Positions 3,151 to 19,152 of a stretch of 64,000 nucleotides of DNA are shown piece by piece. Under the pieces are notes generated by a model that was not told the origin of the DNA, did not search any database, and was given only the letters and a program-made list of their open reading frames with translations. The stretch is from Halalkalicoccus jeotgali B3 (lineage in GTDB: Archaea; Halobacteriota; Halobacteria; Halobacteriales; Halalkalicoccaceae), in assembly GCF_000196895.1 (NCBI RefSeq), contig NC_014299.1, positions 62,001 to 126,000 of the forward strand, in the 5' to 3' direction. The position numbers and the translations under genes are program-made. Position 1 is the stretch's first letter. Each line of letters starts with the position of its first letter.

Positions 3151-3582
3151 TTACTCGCCTTCGTCAACGTAATAGGATGCACGTCCAACAACGACAGTCG
3201 TCCACTCTCCGGGAGTACGCTCAGAGACGATATCGACCTCGATGACGGCGAGTGACCGCCCGTGGCGGCGTACTCGTGCCTCCGCGCGTAAATCGCCAGT
3301 CGCTGGCCGGAGATATGAGAGGTTCATCTCCGTTGTAGCGTATAGTGCTGTCTCGGGGTCCTTGAGGACCGTCCGGAGCGCCGTTCCGGCAGCATTGTCG
3401 AGGAGCGTGGCGAGAACGCCACCATGGAGCGTGTCTCCGTTTGGGTTCGTAAGTTCCTTGCGGTGAGGTAGCCGCAGCACTGCATTACCCTCCGACTCCT
3501 CTACGATAGTGATGCCAAGCCACGAGAGGAGACCTGTCTCAGCGAGGACCCGCTCAGATGACGTCTTGGAAGGACCCGTCAT
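3151..3582 (-). CDS. PaaI-family hotdog acyl-CoA thioesterase
   Basis: 143 residues, the typical length for a single hotdog domain. The family signature is PNGDTLHGGVLATLLDNAAG at about residues 47-66, with the HGG turn and the acidic residue D62 on the long helix. These enzymes hydrolyse aryl- or short acyl-CoA thioesters and often act as CoA salvage in CoA-dependent degradation pathways. The start at 3582 is chosen because upstream codons overlap the SDR gene in another frame. The gene begins five bases after the SDR stop, so they form an operon. Confidence 0.85.
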   Translation of the reverse strand: MTGPSKTSSERVLAETGLLSWLGITIVEESEGNAVLRLPHRKELTNPNGDTLHGGVLATLLDNAAGTALRTVLKDPETALYATTEMNLSYLRPATGDLRAEARVRRHGRSLAVIEVDIVSERTPGEWTTVVVGRASYYVDEGE

Positions 3583-3587
3583 GGGCG

Positions 3588-4367
3588 TCAGTTCGGGTCC
3601 TCGGAATGCGGCGGCACACCGCGGACGGTTAGAATTTCGCCATCGATAAACGAGGCTGCAGGACTGGCGAGGAACTCTACGACATCGGCGATTTCGGCAG
3701 TAGTACCGATCTTCCGATTCACATTCGAACGGTCGATATCGGCAGGGTCGGTATCGCCAGCAGTGACTGCACCAGGAGTGGCGATGAAGCCCGGCGAAAC
3801 GCAGTTGACGCGGACGCCGGAGGCGGCCCACTCGCTGGCGAGTGATCTCGTGAAGTTGTTGACGCCGGCTTTTGCCGCGCCATAATGGATCTCGTGCGGG
3901 GCAGCCTCTTGACTCCGAATGCTAGAGATATTGACGACGGACCCACCGCCGTCCTGAAGTGCCTCTCTCGCGGCATGGGTACAGTTGAACACACCGTGGA
4001 GATTGATGTCGACGATGGTCTTCCAGCCGTTCTCGCTAAGGCCGTCGAAGTCACACTTGAAGGCCGCTCCGGCGTTGTTTACGAGAATATCGATAGCACC
4101 GAACTTTTCGACGGTGCGTTCAACCATTCGGTCGACTGAATCGCGGTTCCGAACGTCGCACTCGATAGGGAGGATATGTCCTATACTGTCACTGTCATTG
4201 TCGTTGATTTCCTCTGCAACCGGGTCGACGTTGCTCTGCTTGCGGGAGCAGATGGTTGTGTCGACGCCTTGATCGGCAAATCCTTCGGCGATGCGTCGTC
4301 CGATACCACTCGACGCGCCGGTGATGATGGCACTTGACCCGTCGACGTTGAACTTGTTGTGGGACAT
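3588..4367 (-). CDS. Short-chain dehydrogenase/reductase (classical SDR)
   Basis: 259 residues with a complete classical SDR active site: TGASSGIG at residues 16-23 (cofactor loop), NNAG at 97-100, Ser148/149, and Tyr162-x-x-x-Lys166 (YGAAK). A Ser-Arg-Lys stretch after the second beta strand (CSRKQ) favours NADP(H). It probably oxidises or reduces a hydroxy- or oxo-acyl intermediate. It is co-directional with the thioesterase and BKACE genes and likely in one operon with them. Unlike the two other SDR genes in this window it keeps the normal catalytic pair. Confidence 0.88.
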   Translation of the reverse strand: MSHNKFNVDGSSAIITGASSGIGRRIAEGFADQGVDTTICSRKQSNVDPVAEEINDNDSDSIGHILPIECDVRNRDSVDRMVERTVEKFGAIDILVNNAGAAFKCDFDGLSENGWKTIVDINLHGVFNCTHAAREALQDGGGSVVNISSIRSQEAAPHEIHYGAAKAGVNNFTRSLASEWAASGVRVNCVSPGFIATPGAVTAGDTDPADIDRSNVNRKIGTTAEIADVVEFLASPAASFIDGEILTVRGVPPHSEDPN

Positions 4368-10490: not shown

Positions 10491-11582
10491 TTATCCCTCG
10501 AATTGTTCGAGTGTGGTTAAGTTCTCGTTCCACATATCGTTGTCCTTGTAGTACTGTTCAGCGCCGGGGTGGACGGGAACGCCACTGGGCTGAAGCCATT
10601 CTGTGGCAAAGTCAGGGCCGAATCGTTCAAGAACGGCACTGGCGCTACGAACTCCCTCGACGTTGTTCATTAGGATCTCCGTGTACTCGTAGGCAAGCTC
10701 TTGAGAGATATCCGACGGGATGACTGTGGTATACCCCAGTGGTAGCGCGGTATAGGGATCATGGGAAATCTCTTGATTCCACGTATCGCCTGGCACGTCG
10801 GTGACTGCGACGGGCACATCTGCACTGTTGGCTTGATCGGCAGAGATGCCCCACTCAAGAACGTCAACGTCGACTTGTGCGTCGAGTTGTTGAATCCAGC
10901 CTATAAGCGTCTCCTGATTCGCAGTGTAGCACGTACACACATCGATACGACCTTCGTTCATCGCGGTGGCCTGATCGCCGAGTCCCATCGTACTGACGTT
11001 GAAGTACTCTTGGGAGTTATCGATGCCGACGAGGCCTAAACCGTCGTTGGCCATGTCCCATGCACTTGTTCCACGTGGGCCGAACGAGATATTGGTTCCC
11101 TCCGGAAGGTCCTCAACGCGAGTAACACCTTCGAGACTGGATGCGCCCTGCCGCTTGACGAGAAAGATGTCCAATGTCATGTATGAAAACGTCTGACACA
11201 GGGTTTTTTCGACTGGGGGTTCAGAGTACGGACCTTCATCACGGTTGGCACGCCACAAGAGGTTGTGCGTCGTCTGGGCAATGTCAATCTGGCCTTGATC
11301 GACGAGTCGGTTGTTCGCTGTGGTACCGCCCGTAGTCTGGGCGCTCATCTGGATCTGATCTGAGTTTTCGTTGATGACTGAGGAGAATGCGACACCTGAC
11401 GCGTGAGTCGCGGTCTCCTCACCGCTGGTACCGATAGTCCACGAACCAGAATTGCTGCTGCCGCCACTCCCCTCCCCATCTCCATTACCGCCCCCGGAAC
11501 ACCCGGCGAGGCCGAGCATTCCGACGGTTGCTCCCATCGTTTTGATGACTGATCGGCGGTCAAACTTGTTGCTACCTACCAT
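10491..11582 (-). CDS. TAXI-family TRAP transporter substrate-binding lipoprotein
   Basis: 363 residues. The N-terminus is a Tat signal (DRRSVIK, residues 8-14) with hydrophobic stretch and lipobox LAGC (C28), then a Gly/Ser-rich linker, so it is predicted to be exported folded and anchored to the membrane. The mature part reads WTIGTSGEE, GGTTANNRLVDQGQIDIAQT and GPRGTSAWDMANDGL, typical of TAXI binding proteins that serve fused TRAP permeases. The permease gene at 12585 is on the other strand beyond an SDR gene. TAXI proteins mostly bind dicarboxylates or glutamate-like acids; the ligand here is unknown. The start at 11582 gives a clean signal peptide. Confidence 0.88.
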   Translation of the reverse strand: MVGSNKFDRRSVIKTMGATVGMLGLAGCSGGGNGDGEGSGGSSNSGSWTIGTSGEETATHASGVAFSSVINENSDQIQMSAQTTGGTTANNRLVDQGQIDIAQTTHNLLWRANRDEGPYSEPPVEKTLCQTFSYMTLDIFLVKRQGASSLEGVTRVEDLPEGTNISFGPRGTSAWDMANDGLGLVGIDNSQEYFNVSTMGLGDQATAMNEGRIDVCTCYTANQETLIGWIQQLDAQVDVDVLEWGISADQANSADVPVAVTDVPGDTWNQEISHDPYTALPLGYTTVIPSDISQELAYEYTEILMNNVEGVRSASAVLERFGPDFATEWLQPSGVPVHPGAEQYYKDNDMWNENLTTLEQFEG

Positions 11583-11652
11583 GTCTATCGATACATAGAG
11601 ACAATGATTTATAAACACTTGGTATGTGCCAGCAACGGGCATCACTTTCTGC

Positions 11653-12399
11653 TTACAGTGTCGACTGGAGCGCACCGCCGTCGATAGGAATTGCCGCGCC
11701 AGTGAGGTAACTTGAGTATCCCGAACAGAGAAACGCGACTACATCACCAAGCTCTCGGGCCTCGCCCATCCTATCTAATGGCACGTCCGAGAGGTCAACA
11801 CCGGCCTCGCCCGCGTCGTGTCGTCGCGGCGTGTAGTACAGTCCTGGTAAGATGGTGTTCACTCGGATCTCAGGTGCGAGTTCATCCGAAAGGACTTTCG
11901 CCAATCCTTGCACGCACATCCGGACCGAACTCGACAGGACGTTCGCCCCCGATGCTTCCTTCGTAACCATCGAAGTGATATTGGTAATAGTTCCTCCTAC
12001 CTCTCTGAGGTGCGGTATTGATTCCCGAACCGCTCGGACGACGCTCATCACGAGCATGTCGTATGCGTAGTACCAGTCGTCGTCCTGGGTTTCTGTAAAG
12101 GTGTACCGCGTCGGCCCGCCTGCACTGGTCACGAGGTGGTCAAGACGACCGAACTCATCAACCGTCGTCTCAACGAGGCGTGTAATGTCGTCCGGGTTTG
12201 TCATGTCGCCCACACAGCCGATAACTTGGCCCTCTGCTGTCTCGCGCAATTCCTCGACCGCGTTCTCAAGTCGTCCTTCATCCCGTCCGTTCACGATCAC
12301 GTCGACGCCCGCTTTTGCTAAGGAGGCTGCCGAGGCCTTTCCGAGACCACTGCTTGAGGCGATGACTAGTGCTGCATTACCCTCTAGGTCCAATTGCAT
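11653..12399 (-). CDS. Atypical SDR lacking the catalytic Tyr-x-x-x-Lys
   Basis: 248 residues. The fold is clearly SDR: SSSGLGKASA at residues 15-24 in place of TGxxxGIG, NGRDEGRL after beta-2, TSAGG at 91-95, ITSM around S143 and a C-terminal IDGGALQS. At the position of Tyr-x-x-x-Lys the protein has Ser156-x-x-x-Arg160 (SSSVRMCVQGLAK). The same Ser-x-x-x-Arg replacement occurs in the SDR at 61218. It may be a BKR-like SDR subgroup with changed chemistry, or an enzyme using another base. It lies between the two TRAP transporter genes, so a role on the imported substrate is likely. Confidence 0.8.
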   Translation of the reverse strand: MQLDLEGNAALVIASSSGLGKASAASLAKAGVDVIVNGRDEGRLENAVEELRETAEGQVIGCVGDMTNPDDITRLVETTVDEFGRLDHLVTSAGGPTRYTFTETQDDDWYYAYDMLVMSVVRAVRESIPHLREVGGTITNITSMVTKEASGANVLSSSVRMCVQGLAKVLSDELAPEIRVNTILPGLYYTPRRHDAGEAGVDLSDVPLDRMGEARELGDVVAFLCSGYSSYLTGAAIPIDGGALQSTL

Positions 12400-12584
12400 A
12401 CGCCATTTTCTACCGAGGGAGTTGTGATAAGCCTTTGTGGCATGGTATCATAACTCTCTTCTTTTGGTTTTTAGCCATAGAGCCCCTGTGCTTGAGCGCC
12501 TATTTTGGAGTCGTAGGTTGCATTTCTAAAATGATATTTCCCGACAGGTATATCACCGATTCCAGTTACTCATTAACACATACC

Positions 12585-14672
12585 ATGGAAACCTCCCGAT
12601 TATCTTGGCTGAACCGAGAGGAACCACTACTGATGGGTAAGTACATCTTCCTGGTTCTTCTCGGGATTGCCGGTGTTATCTATCATCTATGGTTCGCGCT
12701 AACTTACGGCATTGAGATGCAACTGCACCTAGTCGCTCATCTCGGGTTCATGATGGTCGCCATCACTGCGGTCTGCTTTGACCCGCAAGTAAACCGTGAA
12801 GACGGCTGGCTTTCGGTACTTGATAATTATTTAGTCTTACCGGCTGAGCTCATCGGCTCCGCTGGAATCGCCATCTATCTCTGGATGAACTATGAACGCC
12901 TGGCCGTCTTTTCGATAGGTGTCTACACCGACGTTGACTTCTACGTCGGTATTTTTCTGCTTCTCTTCATTATCGATCAGTCGCGCCGAGCGTTCGGAAA
13001 TATCTTGCCAGCTGTCGGTGTCATCGGCCTCATCTACGCCATCGCAGGACCGTACTTCCCATCAATTCTCCGGCATGGAGGTATTGAGTTCCGTCGGCTT
13101 ATCACTTCACAAACCGTCGCGTTTGCTGGTGTCTACGATACGCTTGTACAGGTCGCCGCGACTTATATTGTCATTTTCATTGTCTTTGCCGCGTTCCTTG
13201 AGGCCTACGGCGCGATGAATTACTTCGTTAATATTGGAGCAAAGGTCGGCAGCTACGTCAAATCGGGTATCACTCAGACAGCCGTCGTCACAAGCGTCGC
13301 AATGGGCTCGGTTAACGGGAGTGCGGCAGCCAATGCCGCGACAACGGGCGCATTTACCATCCCACTAATGAAGAATCAGGGTATCAGCAAAGAGACCTCA
13401 GCGGCCATCGAATCCGTCGCATCCAGCGGTGGACAGATCATGCCACCGATTATGGGCGCTGCAGCGTTCGTCATGGCCGAGATTACCGGAACCAGTTATC
13501 TCCATATCATCACTATCGGTCTGCTTCCGGCACTGCTATTCTACGGCACTATCGCCGTCGCAGTACACTTGATTACGTTAAAGGAGGGGGCCGGACTGAC
13601 AAACCTCGAAGACGTCGGGAGCGACAGGGATGAGAGTAAAATAAACGAAGGGGATAAGACTATCGAGGATATTTCAATGGGAACGACGACACAACCCAGC
13701 GATATGTCGATGCTAGCTGAAGCGAGTCAGACTTCTTTCCTCGCCTCTCTCGCAAAGGGGATGTATCTCTGGTTGCCGGTCTCAATTCTCGTCTACACGC
13801 TGGTCATCCTCCAGTACGACCCGGTCTACGCCGGGTTCTTTTCCACTCTCTCGATATTCCCCGTTGCACTGCTTCAGGGGTTGTACTTTGGTGACGACAA
13901 GAAAGTCGCCGTTAGGGACTTTGTTGAAAACACTATTGAGGGATGTCGACTAGGTATGAGCAACGCGGCACCGATTACCCTCGCAGTCGCAGTTATCGCT
14001 ATCTTCGTCGGCGTGTTGAACCAGACCGGCTTCACGCAGGCGCTCGCACAGAGCCTAATTTCGCTGTCGGGCGGCGAGCTGGCCTTACTGCTATTCTTTG
14101 CAATGTTCGCAGCAATCCTCTTCGGTCTAGGAATGCCAACTGTCGCCGCTTACATCGTCGCTGTATTGCTCATCGCGCCCGCACTGGTGAATCTCGGCGT
14201 GCGACTGGAGACGGCACACTTCTTTGTGTTCTATTTTGCCATCCTCTCGGCGATCACACCACCAGTCGCCATCGCCTGTATCATTACTGCGGAGATCTCG
14301 AAGGGGAACTTCTGGCGCGTCGCCGCGAAGTCCCTCGTCATCGGTATGCCGCTGTTCCTGCTTCCGTACGTCTTCATTATGAACGACGCTGTCATGTATT
14401 GGGAATTCCCGCAGACGCTCGTGTTGTTCCCGATGCTACTCTTGGGATTAATCTGTCTGTCCATCGCCAGCATCGGCTACCTCAACGGAGACCTCAGTTG
14501 GCCGTTCAGAATCGTTATCGGAGCTGTTGGTTTCGGCATCTTGTTCGTTCCAGTTCTTCCAGTCGCCGACCAACTCGTCCGCATGGTACTGGTAGCTATT
14601 GCCGGCGGCATGTTATTTTATCAGGGCACGTTTGATGGCCTCCAACAGCATCTCACGAAGGTACTGCCGTAA
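12585..14672 (+). CDS. TRAP transporter permease, fused small and large (DctQM-type) subunits
   Basis: 695 residues of mostly hydrophobic segments. The central part matches the large TRAP subunit of the 4TM/12TM fused class: GSVNGSAAANAATTGAFTIPLMK, then ASSGGQIMPPIMGAAAFVMAE and LGMPTVAAYIVAVLL. These are the repeated scoop motifs of the Na+-coupled elevator domain. A charged loop of about 60 residues (after ITLKEGAGL) splits the two halves. It pairs with the TAXI protein at 10491. The start at 12585 (METSRLSW) is preferred; the in-frame extension upstream would overlap the SDR gene and is not hydrophobic in the right way. Confidence 0.9.
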   Translation: METSRLSWLNREEPLLMGKYIFLVLLGIAGVIYHLWFALTYGIEMQLHLVAHLGFMMVAITAVCFDPQVNREDGWLSVLDNYLVLPAELIGSAGIAIYLWMNYERLAVFSIGVYTDVDFYVGIFLLLFIIDQSRRAFGNILPAVGVIGLIYAIAGPYFPSILRHGGIEFRRLITSQTVAFAGVYDTLVQVAATYIVIFIVFAAFLEAYGAMNYFVNIGAKVGSYVKSGITQTAVVTSVAMGSVNGSAAANAATTGAFTIPLMKNQGISKETSAAIESVASSGGQIMPPIMGAAAFVMAEITGTSYLHIITIGLLPALLFYGTIAVAVHLITLKEGAGLTNLEDVGSDRDESKINEGDKTIEDISMGTTTQPSDMSMLAEASQTSFLASLAKGMYLWLPVSILVYTLVILQYDPVYAGFFSTLSIFPVALLQGLYFGDDKKVAVRDFVENTIEGCRLGMSNAAPITLAVAVIAIFVGVLNQTGFTQALAQSLISLSGGELALLLFFAMFAAILFGLGMPTVAAYIVAVLLIAPALVNLGVRLETAHFFVFYFAILSAITPPVAIACIITAEISKGNFWRVAAKSLVIGMPLFLLPYVFIMNDAVMYWEFPQTLVLFPMLLLGLICLSIASIGYLNGDLSWPFRIVIGAVGFGILFVPVLPVADQLVRMVLVAIAGGMLFYQGTFDGLQQHLTKVLP

Positions 14673-14709: not shown

Positions 14710-15141
14710 TTAACTGACTCTCCTTACTTCTATATTAGTTGTCAGGACCGGACACTCTGCGTCGAAGATAACTTTTTGCACGACACTACCGAAGACAGCC
14801 TTTCCGACTGGACTCCGTTTGCGACCACCGAGAATGATTTGGTTGGCGTCTGCGTCTCGTGCCGCTCTGATAATTTCCTCGGCAGGGTCTCCACTTCGCT
14901 GTTCGGCTCGAGCAGTAATTCCTTCCGATTGAAAGAACGAGAGCGCGTTTGACGCGCTCTCGGGCATATCGGCATACTCCTCTATATTGATTTTCCCGCC
15001 CTCGTCACTCTGAATCTCCTTTGCGACATTAACAATCAGGACCTCGATTTCCTCGCTCGCACAGGGATAGTCCGCAACGGCCTCCACTTGGGCCATCACG
15101 CGTTCTTTGTGACCGTCTGTCGCTAAGACTACTGTGAACAT
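14710..15141 (-). CDS. Universal stress protein (UspA family)
   Basis: 143 residues of one Usp domain, including the ATP-binding loop GGRKRSPVGKAVFGSVVQ (Gly-x2-Gly-x9-Gly-Ser pattern). Usp proteins often sit next to transporters in haloarchaea and may sense ATP or energy state for them. It is convergent with the TRAP permease, ending 37 bases after it. A frameshifted Usp gene is found near the second island at 62062. Confidence 0.9.
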   Translation of the reverse strand: MFTVVLATDGHKERVMAQVEAVADYPCASEEIEVLIVNVAKEIQSDEGGKINIEEYADMPESASNALSFFQSEGITARAEQRSGDPAEEIIRAARDADANQIILGGRKRSPVGKAVFGSVVQKVIFDAECPVLTTNIEVRRVS

Positions 15142-15196: not shown

Positions 15197-16195
15197 TCAA
15201 TGGCCAGGGATTCGCTTCGTCACGGACTCGGTGTCGCCGAAACTCGGGTGAAACAGCGAGTGTCGGCCCGCACCACCGGTGACTGTCACGAGGACGTTTT
15301 CCGGTTTTGCTGCGAGCCCCACGTCTTGGTACTCGCGGAGGCCTCGAAAGTGAGTAGGCCAGCCACCACCCGCCTCGTCGAACATCCCTTGGTCGCGCAA
15401 CTCCTCTTGTGGGATTCGGGCGTGGTCGTAGATGAACCGTTTCACGTCGTCTTTCGACCAGCCGTCGCGAGCGATAGTCGCCGCATGCTCTGGCGACAAT
15501 ACGAGGTGTGGTTCGCCGTGTGCGTTGAGATATGCGAGGTTTGTCCCTACTTTCGCCATTGTCTGGGCTGCGGTGGTGAGAACGCCGGCAGCCGTGTCGG
15601 CAACGTGGTCATTGATGTTGTGTGGGGATTCCGAAGCGACGACTGTGACTGCACTTTCGTCGGCATCGAAACCGCGTTCGACGTGCAGCGGTTCCCACGG
15701 ACTTTCGGCTTCGTTCTCGGCGACACATAGCCCGAACTTGTGTGGTCCCCCATGGGTCGCCTTATCGCCTTGATCGGGGATAGCACCCCCAATATTCATG
15801 TAGGCGAAGGTGAGCGCCCGGCCGATGGTCGCATTCGATTTTGAACCCTGTCCATAGGCGTTGGCACCGCCGTTGATATCGAGTTCCTCGACTATCGGCC
15901 CGTTGACGACGATAGCTGGCCAACAGGGGTGGGTCGTCGCGAGCGCGCCGTAGAGGTTGAATTCGGGTTCCAGCGTCGCTTCGAGTGCCGTCAACACGAC
16001 TGGAAAGTACGCCGGCTCACAGCCGGCCATCACCGCGTTTGCAGCCGATTTCTGAACAGTCATGCTTCGATAGGCAGGGGGGATCTCCCCAACGGTCTCT
16101 AATGGGTCGCGGTCGACGGTTTCGAGGAACTGCTTGACTCGCTCCCGAGTGGGTTGTACGATCGGGAGGCCGTCGGGTGAGTCTATCTCGGACAT
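15197..16195 (-). CDS. UGSC-partner protein, paralogue B (DGLPxVxPTxERV family)
   Basis: 332 residues, beginning SPDGLPIVQPTRERV. I recognise the pattern DGLP-V-PT-x-RV followed by AxNAVMAGCxPxYFPVV, VNGPIVEELDIN, NATIGRALT and SPWEPLHVERGF as an uncharacterised family found beside UGSC (seleno)proteins; the function is unknown to me. Conserved cysteines are in VMAGC and FGLCVAENE; a Gly-rich segment near the end reads VTVTGGAGRHSLF. The stop of the CGSC gene and the start of this gene abut at 16195/16196, so they are translationally linked. It is a close paralogue of the protein at 16871, with which it shares long identical blocks and exact length. Confidence 0.75.
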   Translation of the reverse strand: MSEIDSPDGLPIVQPTRERVKQFLETVDRDPLETVGEIPPAYRSMTVQKSAANAVMAGCEPAYFPVVLTALEATLEPEFNLYGALATTHPCWPAIVVNGPIVEELDINGGANAYGQGSKSNATIGRALTFAYMNIGGAIPDQGDKATHGGPHKFGLCVAENEAESPWEPLHVERGFDADESAVTVVASESPHNINDHVADTAAGVLTTAAQTMAKVGTNLAYLNAHGEPHLVLSPEHAATIARDGWSKDDVKRFIYDHARIPQEELRDQGMFDEAGGGWPTHFRGLREYQDVGLAAKPENVLVTVTGGAGRHSLFHPSFGDTESVTKRIPGH

Positions 16196-16801
16196 TCAGA
16201 CTAGTTCGCTCGATGCCGCGCCGGTATACTTTCCCTGATACAGGTCAACGAGTACTTCGGGGTCGGTTGTCAGTGCTTCGGTGACCGAAGTAAGGATGTC
16301 GTCGGTGACACGATCACTCGCGACCGCCTCAGGCGAGAGGTCGGCAATAGGGTGTTCTATTTCGACGATTGGAAGCCCGGGAACGCCCTGATTTTCTGCC
16401 TCGTACTGACACAGCGTCGTAAACTCCTCGGTGCAGAAGACGACGGTTGGGACGCCCGCCTCCTCGAGTTGGAAGGAGTCGTGCATTGTCCACGACGAAC
16501 AGGAGCCACAGTCACCATAAGCAATGAGGACGGCATCATACCCTAGGAGTTCTTCGTAGATGTCCTCGTCGGCCGCACTAGTCGCGACGTCCTTGTAGAC
16601 GACCTCAGAAACGTCGACATCGTAGTCGGCTTCGAGTTGTGCACCGACCTCTCGAAGGAAGTAGTCGGCGTTCTTCTTTGTGTTCGAGAATAGCCCGATT
16701 CGTACGGAATCAACAGTCGATAATCGGTCGGCCAGTACGGTTCCTTTCGCCTCGATTTCGTCGGCGAATGGGTTGAGTATCTCTTCGTCTTGGCTTGTCA
16801 T
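16196..16801 (-). CDS. UGSC-family-like protein with Cys in place of selenocysteine (CGSC)
   Basis: 201 residues. The motif GDCGSCSSWTMHDS places C98-Gly-Ser-C101 after a hydrophobic strand (DAVLIAYGD), matching the UGSC family, in which the first residue is selenocysteine in many bacterial members. A UGSC-type site suggests thiol or selenol redox chemistry or nucleophilic catalysis. A second cluster, VVFCTEEFTTLCQYEA, contributes C132-C141-range cysteines after the motif. Flanked on both sides by the two 332-residue paralogues on the same strand, it is very likely part of one complex or pathway. The biochemical role of the family is not known to me. Confidence 0.75.
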   Translation of the reverse strand: MTSQDEEILNPFADEIEAKGTVLADRLSTVDSVRIGLFSNTKKNADYFLREVGAQLEADYDVDVSEVVYKDVATSAADEDIYEELLGYDAVLIAYGDCGSCSSWTMHDSFQLEEAGVPTVVFCTEEFTTLCQYEAENQGVPGLPIVEIEHPIADLSPEAVASDRVTDDILTSVTEALTTDPEVLVDLYQGKYTGAASSELV

Positions 16802-16870
16802 CCGTTACCTATCTTCGTGCACGAATAATAAGATTTGCCTAGCACGGATGCCGAGTATGACTGAGTCCGC

Positions 16871-17869
16871 TTACTGAATGAGACGTGTCACTGATCTACT
16901 GTCACCGAACGACGATAGAAACAACGAGTGTCGGCCTGTACCGCCTGCAACGAGGACGACCGGGTCCTCGGGGGAGCGACAGATGGGGACGTCGGCGTTG
17001 TCGGGGAGGCCGGAGACCGGGACATGATGCGGTCGGCTCCCATCTTGAGTATCGTACATCCCTTGGTCGCGGAGCTCCTTATGGGAAATTCGAGCGTAGT
17101 CATAGATAAACCGCTTCACGTCGTCTTTCGACCAGCCGTCGCGAGCAATAGTCGCCGCATGCTCCGGCGATAACACGAGACAGGGCTCTGCCCGCTCGGA
17201 GAGATACGTCGTATTCGCACCGAGGACTGACATGCTCTGTACCGCGGTGGTGAGGACGCCGGCGGCCGTGTTAGCGATGTGGTCGCTGATGTTGTGGGGC
17301 GCTTCGGTCGTCAGCACTGTGACCGTATTTTCGTTGGCGTCGAAGCCGCGTTCGACGTGCAGCGGTTCCCACGGGCTTTCGAATTCATTTTCGGCAATAC
17401 AGAGCCCGAACTTGTGGGGGCCGCCGTGAGTCGCCTTATCTGTTAGTCCCGGTGTCGCCCCCGCGACATTCATGTAAACGAAGGTGAGTGCCCGACCGAT
17501 GGTCGCGTTCGGTTTCGAGCCCTGTCCGAAAGCGTTGGTACCGCTATTGATGTCAAGTTCCTCAACCACAGGGCCGTTGACGATGACCATTGGCCAATGC
17601 GGTTCCGTTGTTGCCAGCGTGCCATAGAGATTAAATTCGGCTTCTAATGTTGCCTCCAGTGCTGACAATACCACTCCAAAATACGATGATTTACAGCCTG
17701 CCATCACCGCGTTCGCCGCCAACGTCTCCATAGTCGCCGACCGTTCGCTTAGTGGGAAGGGACCGAGTTGATCCTTGCTTGTGACGCCGGCGGTGTCCAG
17801 AAACCGCTCGACCCGCTCTCGTGTTGGGTTAACAACAGGAAGTCCGTCCGGGGACGAAGCCGTAACCAT
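16871..17869 (-). CDS. UGSC-partner protein, paralogue A (DGLPxVxPTxERV family)
   Basis: 332 residues when started at 17869 (MVTASSPDGLPVV), exactly the length of paralogue B; an alternative start nine codons upstream (17896) is less supported. It shares with B the blocks NAVMAGC, EFNLYG, VNGP-VEELDIN, NATIGRALTF, SPWEPLHVERGF and LSPEHAATIARDGWSKDDV. Differences concentrate at the N-terminal 40 and C-terminal 50 residues, suggesting divergence after duplication toward a heteromer or two substrates. It is first in the three-gene unit and divergent from the CoA-transferase gene at 17959, with an 89-base shared promoter region containing GCTTAATAG. Confidence 0.75.
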   Translation of the reverse strand: MVTASSPDGLPVVNPTRERVERFLDTAGVTSKDQLGPFPLSERSATMETLAANAVMAGCKSSYFGVVLSALEATLEAEFNLYGTLATTEPHWPMVIVNGPVVEELDINSGTNAFGQGSKPNATIGRALTFVYMNVAGATPGLTDKATHGGPHKFGLCIAENEFESPWEPLHVERGFDANENTVTVLTTEAPHNISDHIANTAAGVLTTAVQSMSVLGANTTYLSERAEPCLVLSPEHAATIARDGWSKDDVKRFIYDYARISHKELRDQGMYDTQDGSRPHHVPVSGLPDNADVPICRSPEDPVVLVAGGTGRHSLFLSSFGDSRSVTRLIQ

Positions 17870-17958
17870 ACTTCCACGGTACACCGGGTAGCTCATACCT
17901 ATTGTGCTGAATTGACTTCGATCCGCGGAAAAAGCTTAATAGAATCACTACCTCCTCT

Positions 17959-19152
17959 ATGAGTATGAGCGATCAGGTGCTGGACAGCATCGACGTAGTC
18001 GACCTTGGGCAGATATACAACGGTCCCTACTGCTCTCTGTTGCTCTCCTATATGGGTGCGAACGTTACAAAAATCGAACCACCACACGGCGAACCGCTAC
18101 GGGACCGCGTCAAGGACGGCGAGGCACCGGAGTTCGTAATGCTCAATTCCAATAAAGAGGGCATGACGCTCAATCTCAAGACGAAAGAGGGTAAGGAGAT
18201 ATTCAAGGAACTCATTGAAGACGCCGACGTACTGATCGAGAACTTTTCTGTCGGTACTATGGAACGACTTGACCTTGGCTATGGCGACCTCACAGAGCTG
18301 AATCCGGAACTCATCTACGCACACAGTAGCGGCTTCGGTGAGGAAGGTCCCTACAACGAGTACCCTGCGATGGACCTTACAATTCAGGCGATAAGCGGCG
18401 TAATGGATGTGACGGGATTTCCGAACGGCCCGCCGACGAAAGCTGGTATCGCCGTCGGCGACTTCATGGGCGGCATCCACCTGCTAGCTGGCGTCCTTGG
18501 TGCACTGTACGAACGGGAATTGACCGGCGAAGGGCAATTCGTGGAGGTGAGCATGCACGACTCGGTGTTCCCGACACTCATGTCTCCGATGGCCGCCCAT
18601 TTCAACGACGACAACGTGCCCCCACGGACCGGTAATCGACACAGCGGCCTCGCCCAGAGCCCCTACAACGTCTACGAGACAGCCGACGGCTACATTGCAA
18701 TCTTCGGTGTCACCAATCGCCACTGGCACTCCCTGCTGGAAGTCATCGGCCGGGAGGATTTGAAGGACGACCCACGCTTCGAGAGCAACGTCAAGCGCTC
18801 GAATCATCTCAATGAGGTCGACGAACTAGTTGAGGGCTGGACTATCGAACGCGAACGCGACGACATTGAGGAAACACTGCTCGACGCAGGCGTTCCTTGC
18901 GGCCCGGTCAAGAAACTCGAAGAAGTTGCTGATGACCCACACCTCAAGGAGCGAGGGATGATAAACGAAATCGACCACCCTGACTACGGCAAAATTTCGG
19001 TCCCCGGCCTTCCGATTCGCTTCTCCGGTTCGGACCTTCCTGACATCGAACCGTCTCCCTCGAAGGGACGGGATACCCGGAAAGTGATGTGTGAACGCCT
19101 TGGATATTCCGAAGCGGAGTTCGAGGAATTGGAAGAGAAAGGCGTATTTTAA
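17959..19152 (+). CDS. CaiB/BaiF (class III) CoA-transferase
   Basis: 397 residues, the usual length for a class III CoA-transferase, which moves CoA from one carboxylic acid to another through an aspartyl anhydride. Family motifs are VVDLGQIYNGPYCSLLL, GANVTKIEPP, LNSNKEGMTLNLKTKEGK, LIENFSVGTMERLDLGY, and GPYNEYPAMDLTIQAISG with the conserved Asp; the C-terminus has CGPVKKLEEVADDPHLKERGM. It is divergent from the UGSC cluster and convergent with the RraA-like gene, ending eight bases from it. A second family member is at 25381. It probably activates the imported acid. Confidence 0.92.
   Translation: MSMSDQVLDSIDVVDLGQIYNGPYCSLLLSYMGANVTKIEPPHGEPLRDRVKDGEAPEFVMLNSNKEGMTLNLKTKEGKEIFKELIEDADVLIENFSVGTMERLDLGYGDLTELNPELIYAHSSGFGEEGPYNEYPAMDLTIQAISGVMDVTGFPNGPPTKAGIAVGDFMGGIHLLAGVLGALYERELTGEGQFVEVSMHDSVFPTLMSPMAAHFNDDNVPPRTGNRHSGLAQSPYNVYETADGYIAIFGVTNRHWHSLLEVIGREDLKDDPRFESNVKRSNHLNEVDELVEGWTIERERDDIEETLLDAGVPCGPVKKLEEVADDPHLKERGMINEIDHPDYGKISVPGLPIRFSGSDLPDIEPSPSKGRDTRKVMCERLGYSEAEFEELEEKGVF

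Follow-up and report, generated by a model that had tools for sequence, protein, structure and literature searches.

Among the described systems closest to the locus reported here are the UGSC family of (seleno)proteins and the selenocysteine (Sec) proteins GrdB and PrdB of glycine and D-proline reductase. The grd operons are genetically linked to trxA/trxB, a link that the present system shares. Few selenoprotein families are commoner in aquatic metagenomes than UGSC, which has been without a function since 2008, when the Global Ocean Sampling survey supposed it likely to have a thioredoxin (Trx) fold and reported it in fusion with Unknown_1, a conserved domain lacking a known function (PMC2398784). 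That arrangement resembles the one described here in that UGSC is joined to a conserved unknown domain, and Unknown_1 may be our partner family; the passages of the survey on which we draw name no two-component system, partner duplication or trx link, unlike the present system.

The window (the whole 64,000-nucleotide stretch of DNA that was analysed) is part of contig 3 (363 kb) of a haloarchaeal genome, and holds a UGSC gene between two copies of a partner gene, P' and P (Table 1). The sequence-only reading of this DNA had described three co-directional genes for proteins of 332, 201 and 332 residues, the first and third being close paralogues with identical blocks and the second partner start abutting the stop of the middle gene, and all of this was recovered with the same sizes and order on the minus strand. 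P and P' are 66% identical, with SPEHAATIARDGWSKDD among the shared blocks. The gap between UGSC and P is 0 bp, the TGA at 16198-16196 touching the ATG of P in a shared frame, and 69 bp lie between P' and UGSC. Read from an in-frame ATG at 17896, P' would have 341 aa; we placed the start at 17869 because the closest homologues begin near that position. UGSC and P are not chance ORFs, given the family scores of the former (158 and 171 bits) and the at least 580 relatives of P in the GTDB genome collection.

Table 1. Features of the UGSC locus and its surroundings, in window positions.
Feature	Position	Strand	Evidence or remark
TAXI-family TRAP solute-binding protein	10491..11675	-	TIGR02122, 90.5 bits (cut-off 84.35)
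Fused TRAP transporter permease	12369..14672	+	PF06808, E 1.7e-57
Universal stress protein gene	14710..15141	-	PF00582, E 1.3e-16; 55 bp downstream of P
P (second DGLP partner copy, 332 aa)	15197..16195	-	ORF and translation; downstream of UGSC
Cys59 codon of P	16019..16021	-	Invariant in 65/65 aligned partners
UGSC stop TGA, then P start ATG, same frame	16193..16198	-	Sequence CTAGTCTGAATG
UGSC-family protein, Cys form, 201 aa	16196..16801	-	PF24696 and NF041046 matches
CGSC motif, Cys98-Gly-Ser-Cys101 of UGSC	16499..16510	-	Alignment; Cys98 is the selenocysteine position of bacterial relatives
P' (first DGLP partner copy, 332 aa)	16871..17869	-	ORF and translation; upstream of UGSC
Cys59 codon of P'	17693..17695	-	Alignments; equivalent to invariant Cys59 of P
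CoA-transferase family III gene, divergent	17959..19152	+	PF02515, E 1.6e-118; synteny

The UGSC protein matches both curated family models over its full length and above their cut-offs (PF24696, 158 bits against 25; NF041046, 171 bits against 125), and the U/CGSC motif of the family is found as C98GSC101 within residues 96-106, GDCGSCSSWTM. The first position of the motif is encoded by a Cys codon and not by the Sec codon (TGA) that prevails in bacteria, as in all haloarchaeal members seen; membership stands despite this, because the family includes Cys members. Unlike the usual UGSC gene, that of the window lies between two partner copies, a layout found in other haloarchaea as well. PDB single-sequence and profile searches with UGSC gave no significant match. 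At least 73 of the 90 UGSC genes found on 80 GTDB contigs have an in-frame TGA in place of the first Cys codon of the motif, and several genes scored as "other" also read UGGC. When the 48 bases from the TGA were folded and compared with shuffled sequences, a SECIS-like hairpin was apparent in the Sec genes (mean z -2.06, 79 genes) as against the Cys genes (-0.19, 10 genes), and an Rfam search at one Sec codon returned no significant match. In Paracoccus, a Sec-form UGSC lies between selA/trxB and selB. This gene, on a plasmid of Paracoccus ferrooxidans (L026:11351-11921), is annotated as two hypothetical proteins divided at the TGA, with DsrE, TusA and cysteine desulfurase genes nearby, making up a plasmid-borne selenium island. 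The UGSC protein of an Arthrobacter (L170:9970-10785) has an additional C-terminal stretch with CSDC that resembles a NifU-like domain.

The possibility, raised earlier, that the partners belong to an already characterised family found no support, as neither P nor P' has a Pfam, NCBIfam or PDB-sequence match, and PDB single-sequence and profile searches with P were likewise without a significant match. Both copies carry the DGLPxxxPT, MAGC and ATIGRA blocks of what we call the DGLP partner family, and the five residues invariant in 65 aligned partners (D8, C59, N121, R126 and E160) are all kept by P'. Modelled alone with AlphaFold2, P reached a pLDDT of 92.9. The 11 best PDB fold matches of this model, all weak (best E 1.3e-3, TM about 0.3, large rmsd, none reaching E 0.001), are class I fumarate hydratases, and a search of a viral fold library returned noise. 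P as a class I fumarase was nevertheless rejected, since comparison with the alpha-domain profile (PF05681) gave 0.5% and only a single Cys is invariant in P, where the cluster site has three conserved ones.

A U/CGSC protein beside DGLPxVxPT-type proteins had been named in the sequence-only reading as a recurring but functionally undescribed pair, and the wider survey bears this out. Of 293 genomes of the order, 13 carry P, and these include every one of the 12 that carry UGSC, an overlap expected by chance with a probability of 2e-20 (hypergeometric); in one haloarchaeal relative (1 of the 13 P genomes) P stands without UGSC. We then scanned the loci of the best 80 of the at least 580 P relatives in the GTDB set, on 80 contigs from Rokubacteria, Chloroflexi/SAR202, Beta-, Gamma- and Alphaproteobacteria, Nitrospinota, Actinobacteria, Poribacteria and archaea. 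UGSC lies directly upstream of P in 79 of 90 cases, directly downstream in 8 and apart in 3. About 25 natural fusions of the two in one frame were found, two of them plasmid-borne, with linkers of about 2-55 residues. A complex prediction, proposed earlier as a check, was run with AlphaFold2 for the window's UGSC and P, joined by reading through the one TGA between them, with the natural fusions as paired rows, and gave a pLDDT of 92.3 and a pTM of 0.93; for a model of 201 + 332 residues, the latter suggests a confidently placed UGSC-P interface. We conclude that UGSC-P is a genuine two-component system.

The redox residues are missing in some fusions, where the motif reads GDMGTS or ADMGTS (Sporomusa, Vibrio) or GEGGN (L094). 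The UGSC domain can thus persist without them, and these fusions represent either decay or a redox-free role. The fusions in which MGTS replaces C/UGSC belong to Vibrio europaeus (L028:11323-13008) and Sporomusa termitida (L027:11281-13005), and aconitase X genes lie near both. A Chloroflexi contig carries three UGSC-P fusion genes in succession (L083:7260-12648), which suggests a local expansion for different substrates.

To place UGSC among known redox proteins, we compared a profile of 28 UGSC sequences with one of 7 GrdB/PrdB sequences, which gave 93.4% (P 2.6e-7) over 89 columns aligning UGSC with the C-terminal Sec domain. DCGSC falls on T-U-G-T-C of GrdB and the ExxGIPTV...HP blocks are in register, so that Sec/Cys-x-x-Cys(Ser) is found in a homologous domain. 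Comparisons with other families gave 7% for GrdE, 2% for Asp/Glu racemase, kinship with which was rejected, and 0.1% for fumarase. None of 12 UGSC members matched PF07355 (GrdB) at E up to 1, and because standard models miss the relation we regard it as remote and not as membership; on the strength of about 90 columns, UGSC is a remote relative of the GrdB/PrdB Sec domain. UGSC has no N-terminal GrdB domain, and its partner shows no sequence relation to the pyruvoyl subunit GrdE/PrdA, an identity for P that we rejected (0.1% against the PF09338 profile; PF09338 matches in 0 of 16 partners). UGSC-P is also found in largely aerobic lineages, haloarchaea among them. A search of the window's own genome for GrdB found none, and sequence searches of the PDB turned up no structure of GrdB or GrdE. 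The PDB matches of the joint model include flavodoxin-like and Rossmann-type proteins, and its elements follow an alpha/beta order; a thioredoxin fold for UGSC was rejected, as no thioredoxin is among the 50 fold matches listed. A deltaproteobacterial genome (G308; L110, L124, L126-L131) holds five full-length GrdB-like and seven GrdE-like genes, a number that exceeds what amino-acid reduction alone would explain.

That the locus encodes a redox system, as had been proposed, is well supported, and UGSC-P has neighbours from the thioredoxin system. In Arthrobacter ERGS1:01, trxB, trxA, P and a Cys-form UGSC are consecutive, and the CATC motif of the reductase and the CGPC motif of the thioredoxin are intact. 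In Roseovarius trxB adjoins P-UGSC, in Variovorax it lies three genes upstream of the pair, and complete operons of a trxB-like gene, UGSC and P exist as well. A gene resembling thioredoxin reductase (TrxR) was found within about 260 bp of the pair at seven loci (L062, L067, L068, L071, L074, L076 and L087), with CxxC intact in all five translations checked. At most loci trx genes are absent from the vicinity, and the window's genome encodes its own TrxB elsewhere. The commonest direct neighbours of the pair are transport proteins, the carboxylate-binding TctC accounting for 18 of 116. Given the trx operons and the TctC/TRAP neighbours, the pair most likely serves to reduce an imported carboxylate. 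An attempt to name the substrate from neighbouring genes was dropped, as the clusters differ too much between lineages.

In the window the locus is surrounded by catabolic and uptake genes, comprising a TAXI-TRAP transporter, CoA-transferases, an RraA-like aldolase, DUF6282, BKACE, acyl-CoA dehydrogenase, enoyl-CoA hydratase and a FAH-like gene (names of unscanned ORFs were assigned by reading their sequence). The CoA-transferase is divergent from the cluster, as noted previously, and is syntenic only in the closest haloarchaeal relatives, where it is 77% identical. With synteny so limited, and with TctC as the commonest direct neighbour elsewhere, the earlier suggestion that the system works on a CoA ester finds no direct support. 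A TAXI-TRAP binding protein gene adjoins P in Halorientalis and Haladaptatus, and the window's own TAXI protein likely serves uptake of the UGSC-P substrate; the universal stress protein gene possibly marks the end of the P transcript. The DUF6282 gene (1176-2285) is metal-hydrolase-like. In Natrialba, in Natrinema and at three Chloroflexi loci its relatives are no more than 150 bp away from UGSC-P, a closeness by which it may act in the same pathway. A PaaI-thioesterase ORF (3151-3831), read from its first GTG, overlaps an SDR gene (3588-4367), and its true start is probably further in. Clusters of largely similar make-up are found on plasmids of Halorientalis and Haladaptatus, plasmids often carry close relatives, and the cluster is absent from all six sampled genomes of the window's genus. 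Its absence from genus-mates and the plasmid location of its relatives point to horizontal spread. In Haladaptatus halobius this catabolic cluster is likewise present, with one P (L023:11974-12981), and a UGSC match is found nowhere in the genome.

The P' and P sequences of the window's clade fall into two distinct clades, both shared with Natronomonas gomsonensis and the nearest genome. Other haloarchaea have a second P-UGSC-P' arrangement, of the GDCGSCTKF type, which represents another duplication, a single origin of the added P in haloarchaea being rejected (AU p 1.7e-8). By these sequence comparisons, P' is a haloarchaeal duplication, and an added P beside UGSC arose independently at least twice in that group. 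Several bacteria have additional P copies after the UGSC-P pair, and single-P systems are the rule elsewhere. Such repeated gain of a paralogue beside one UGSC fits an evolution from homomer to heteromer. The heteromer of two partner types with one CGSC subunit that had been suggested earlier is therefore plausible in view of the repeated duplications and the invariants kept in P', with the joint P-P' complex being the part that we infer.

We think it slightly better than an even bet that UGSC and P form one enzyme, a thiol/selenol reductase that is fed by thioredoxin and has an imported carboxylate as its substrate, probably together with P'. The two would be subunits of a single reductase, UGSC bearing the redox-active Sec/Cys-x-x-Cys and P, the new-family subunit, holding the substrate through Asp8, Cys59, Asn121, Arg126 and Glu160. 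Electrons would pass from NADPH to TrxB (and from there perhaps to TrxA), then to CGSC and to the substrate, a carboxylic acid that a TRAP/TctC-type transporter would import, and the product would enter CoA-ester catabolism. In haloarchaea Cys takes the place of Sec, and in the window's lineage, where P is duplicated, UGSC would probably work with both P and P'. Reduction as the direction, the substrate class and the P' heteromer are the parts of this proposal that we infer. Concerning the last of these, P and P' may instead each be an enzyme in its own right, with a substrate of its own, the two taking turns with the one UGSC, which we consider quite possible while leaning against it. Single-P systems being the rule elsewhere is consistent with separate enzymes, and with all invariant residues present in both copies each could be catalytic, whereas the at least two independent gains of a P beside UGSC in haloarchaea and the additional copies after the pair in several bacteria speak for a joint role.

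The strongest argument for a different chemistry comes from the fusions without redox residues, which retain a P with the invariant Cys59. Here P would catalyse a redox-neutral reaction, as a hydratase, lyase or isomerase acting on a polycarboxylate, and UGSC would be regulatory or structural, its thiols switching or protecting P. The fumarate hydratases among the fold matches of P point the same way, as do aconitase X near the Cys-less fusions and MmgE/PrpD near others. We nevertheless consider this unlikely, because those matches are weak and the sequence relation to the fumarase alpha domain is negligible, an iron-sulfur cluster would need three Cys where P has a single invariant one, and the strong retention of Sec and the trx operons argue for redox turnover. 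It seems less probable still, indeed improbable, that UGSC has a thioredoxin fold and acts as a general thiol-disulfide oxidoreductase or peroxidase, with P as its client or chaperone. Its UxxC/CxxC motif and the likely Trx-fold proposed in the 2008 survey (PMC2398784) would suit such a role, but its predicted fold has an alpha/beta layout, flavodoxin-like and Rossmann-type proteins but no thioredoxin are among the listed PDB matches of the joint model, its best profile relative is GrdB/PrdB, and the pair is found in catabolic and transport clusters and not in stress operons.

Returning to the reductase, we put forward tentatively, at somewhat less than even chances, that thioredoxin-fed selenol/thiol reductases comprise, besides the glycine and D-proline enzymes, a second widespread class represented by UGSC-P, which shares only the redox domain with those enzymes and has a partner of new fold and no pyruvoyl subunit, with a selenium-free, two-partner haloarchaeal form for the breakdown of imported carboxylates. 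The fixed and often fused partner, the link to thioredoxin reductase and thioredoxin and the remote relation to GrdB/PrdB turn UGSC from an orphan family into a testable enzyme, and the haloarchaeal form, being independent of selenium, could be expressed and assayed unaltered. If reductive cleavage of carboxylates is indeed its reaction, chemistry like that of Grd and Prd would reach well beyond the amino-acid-fermenting anaerobes.
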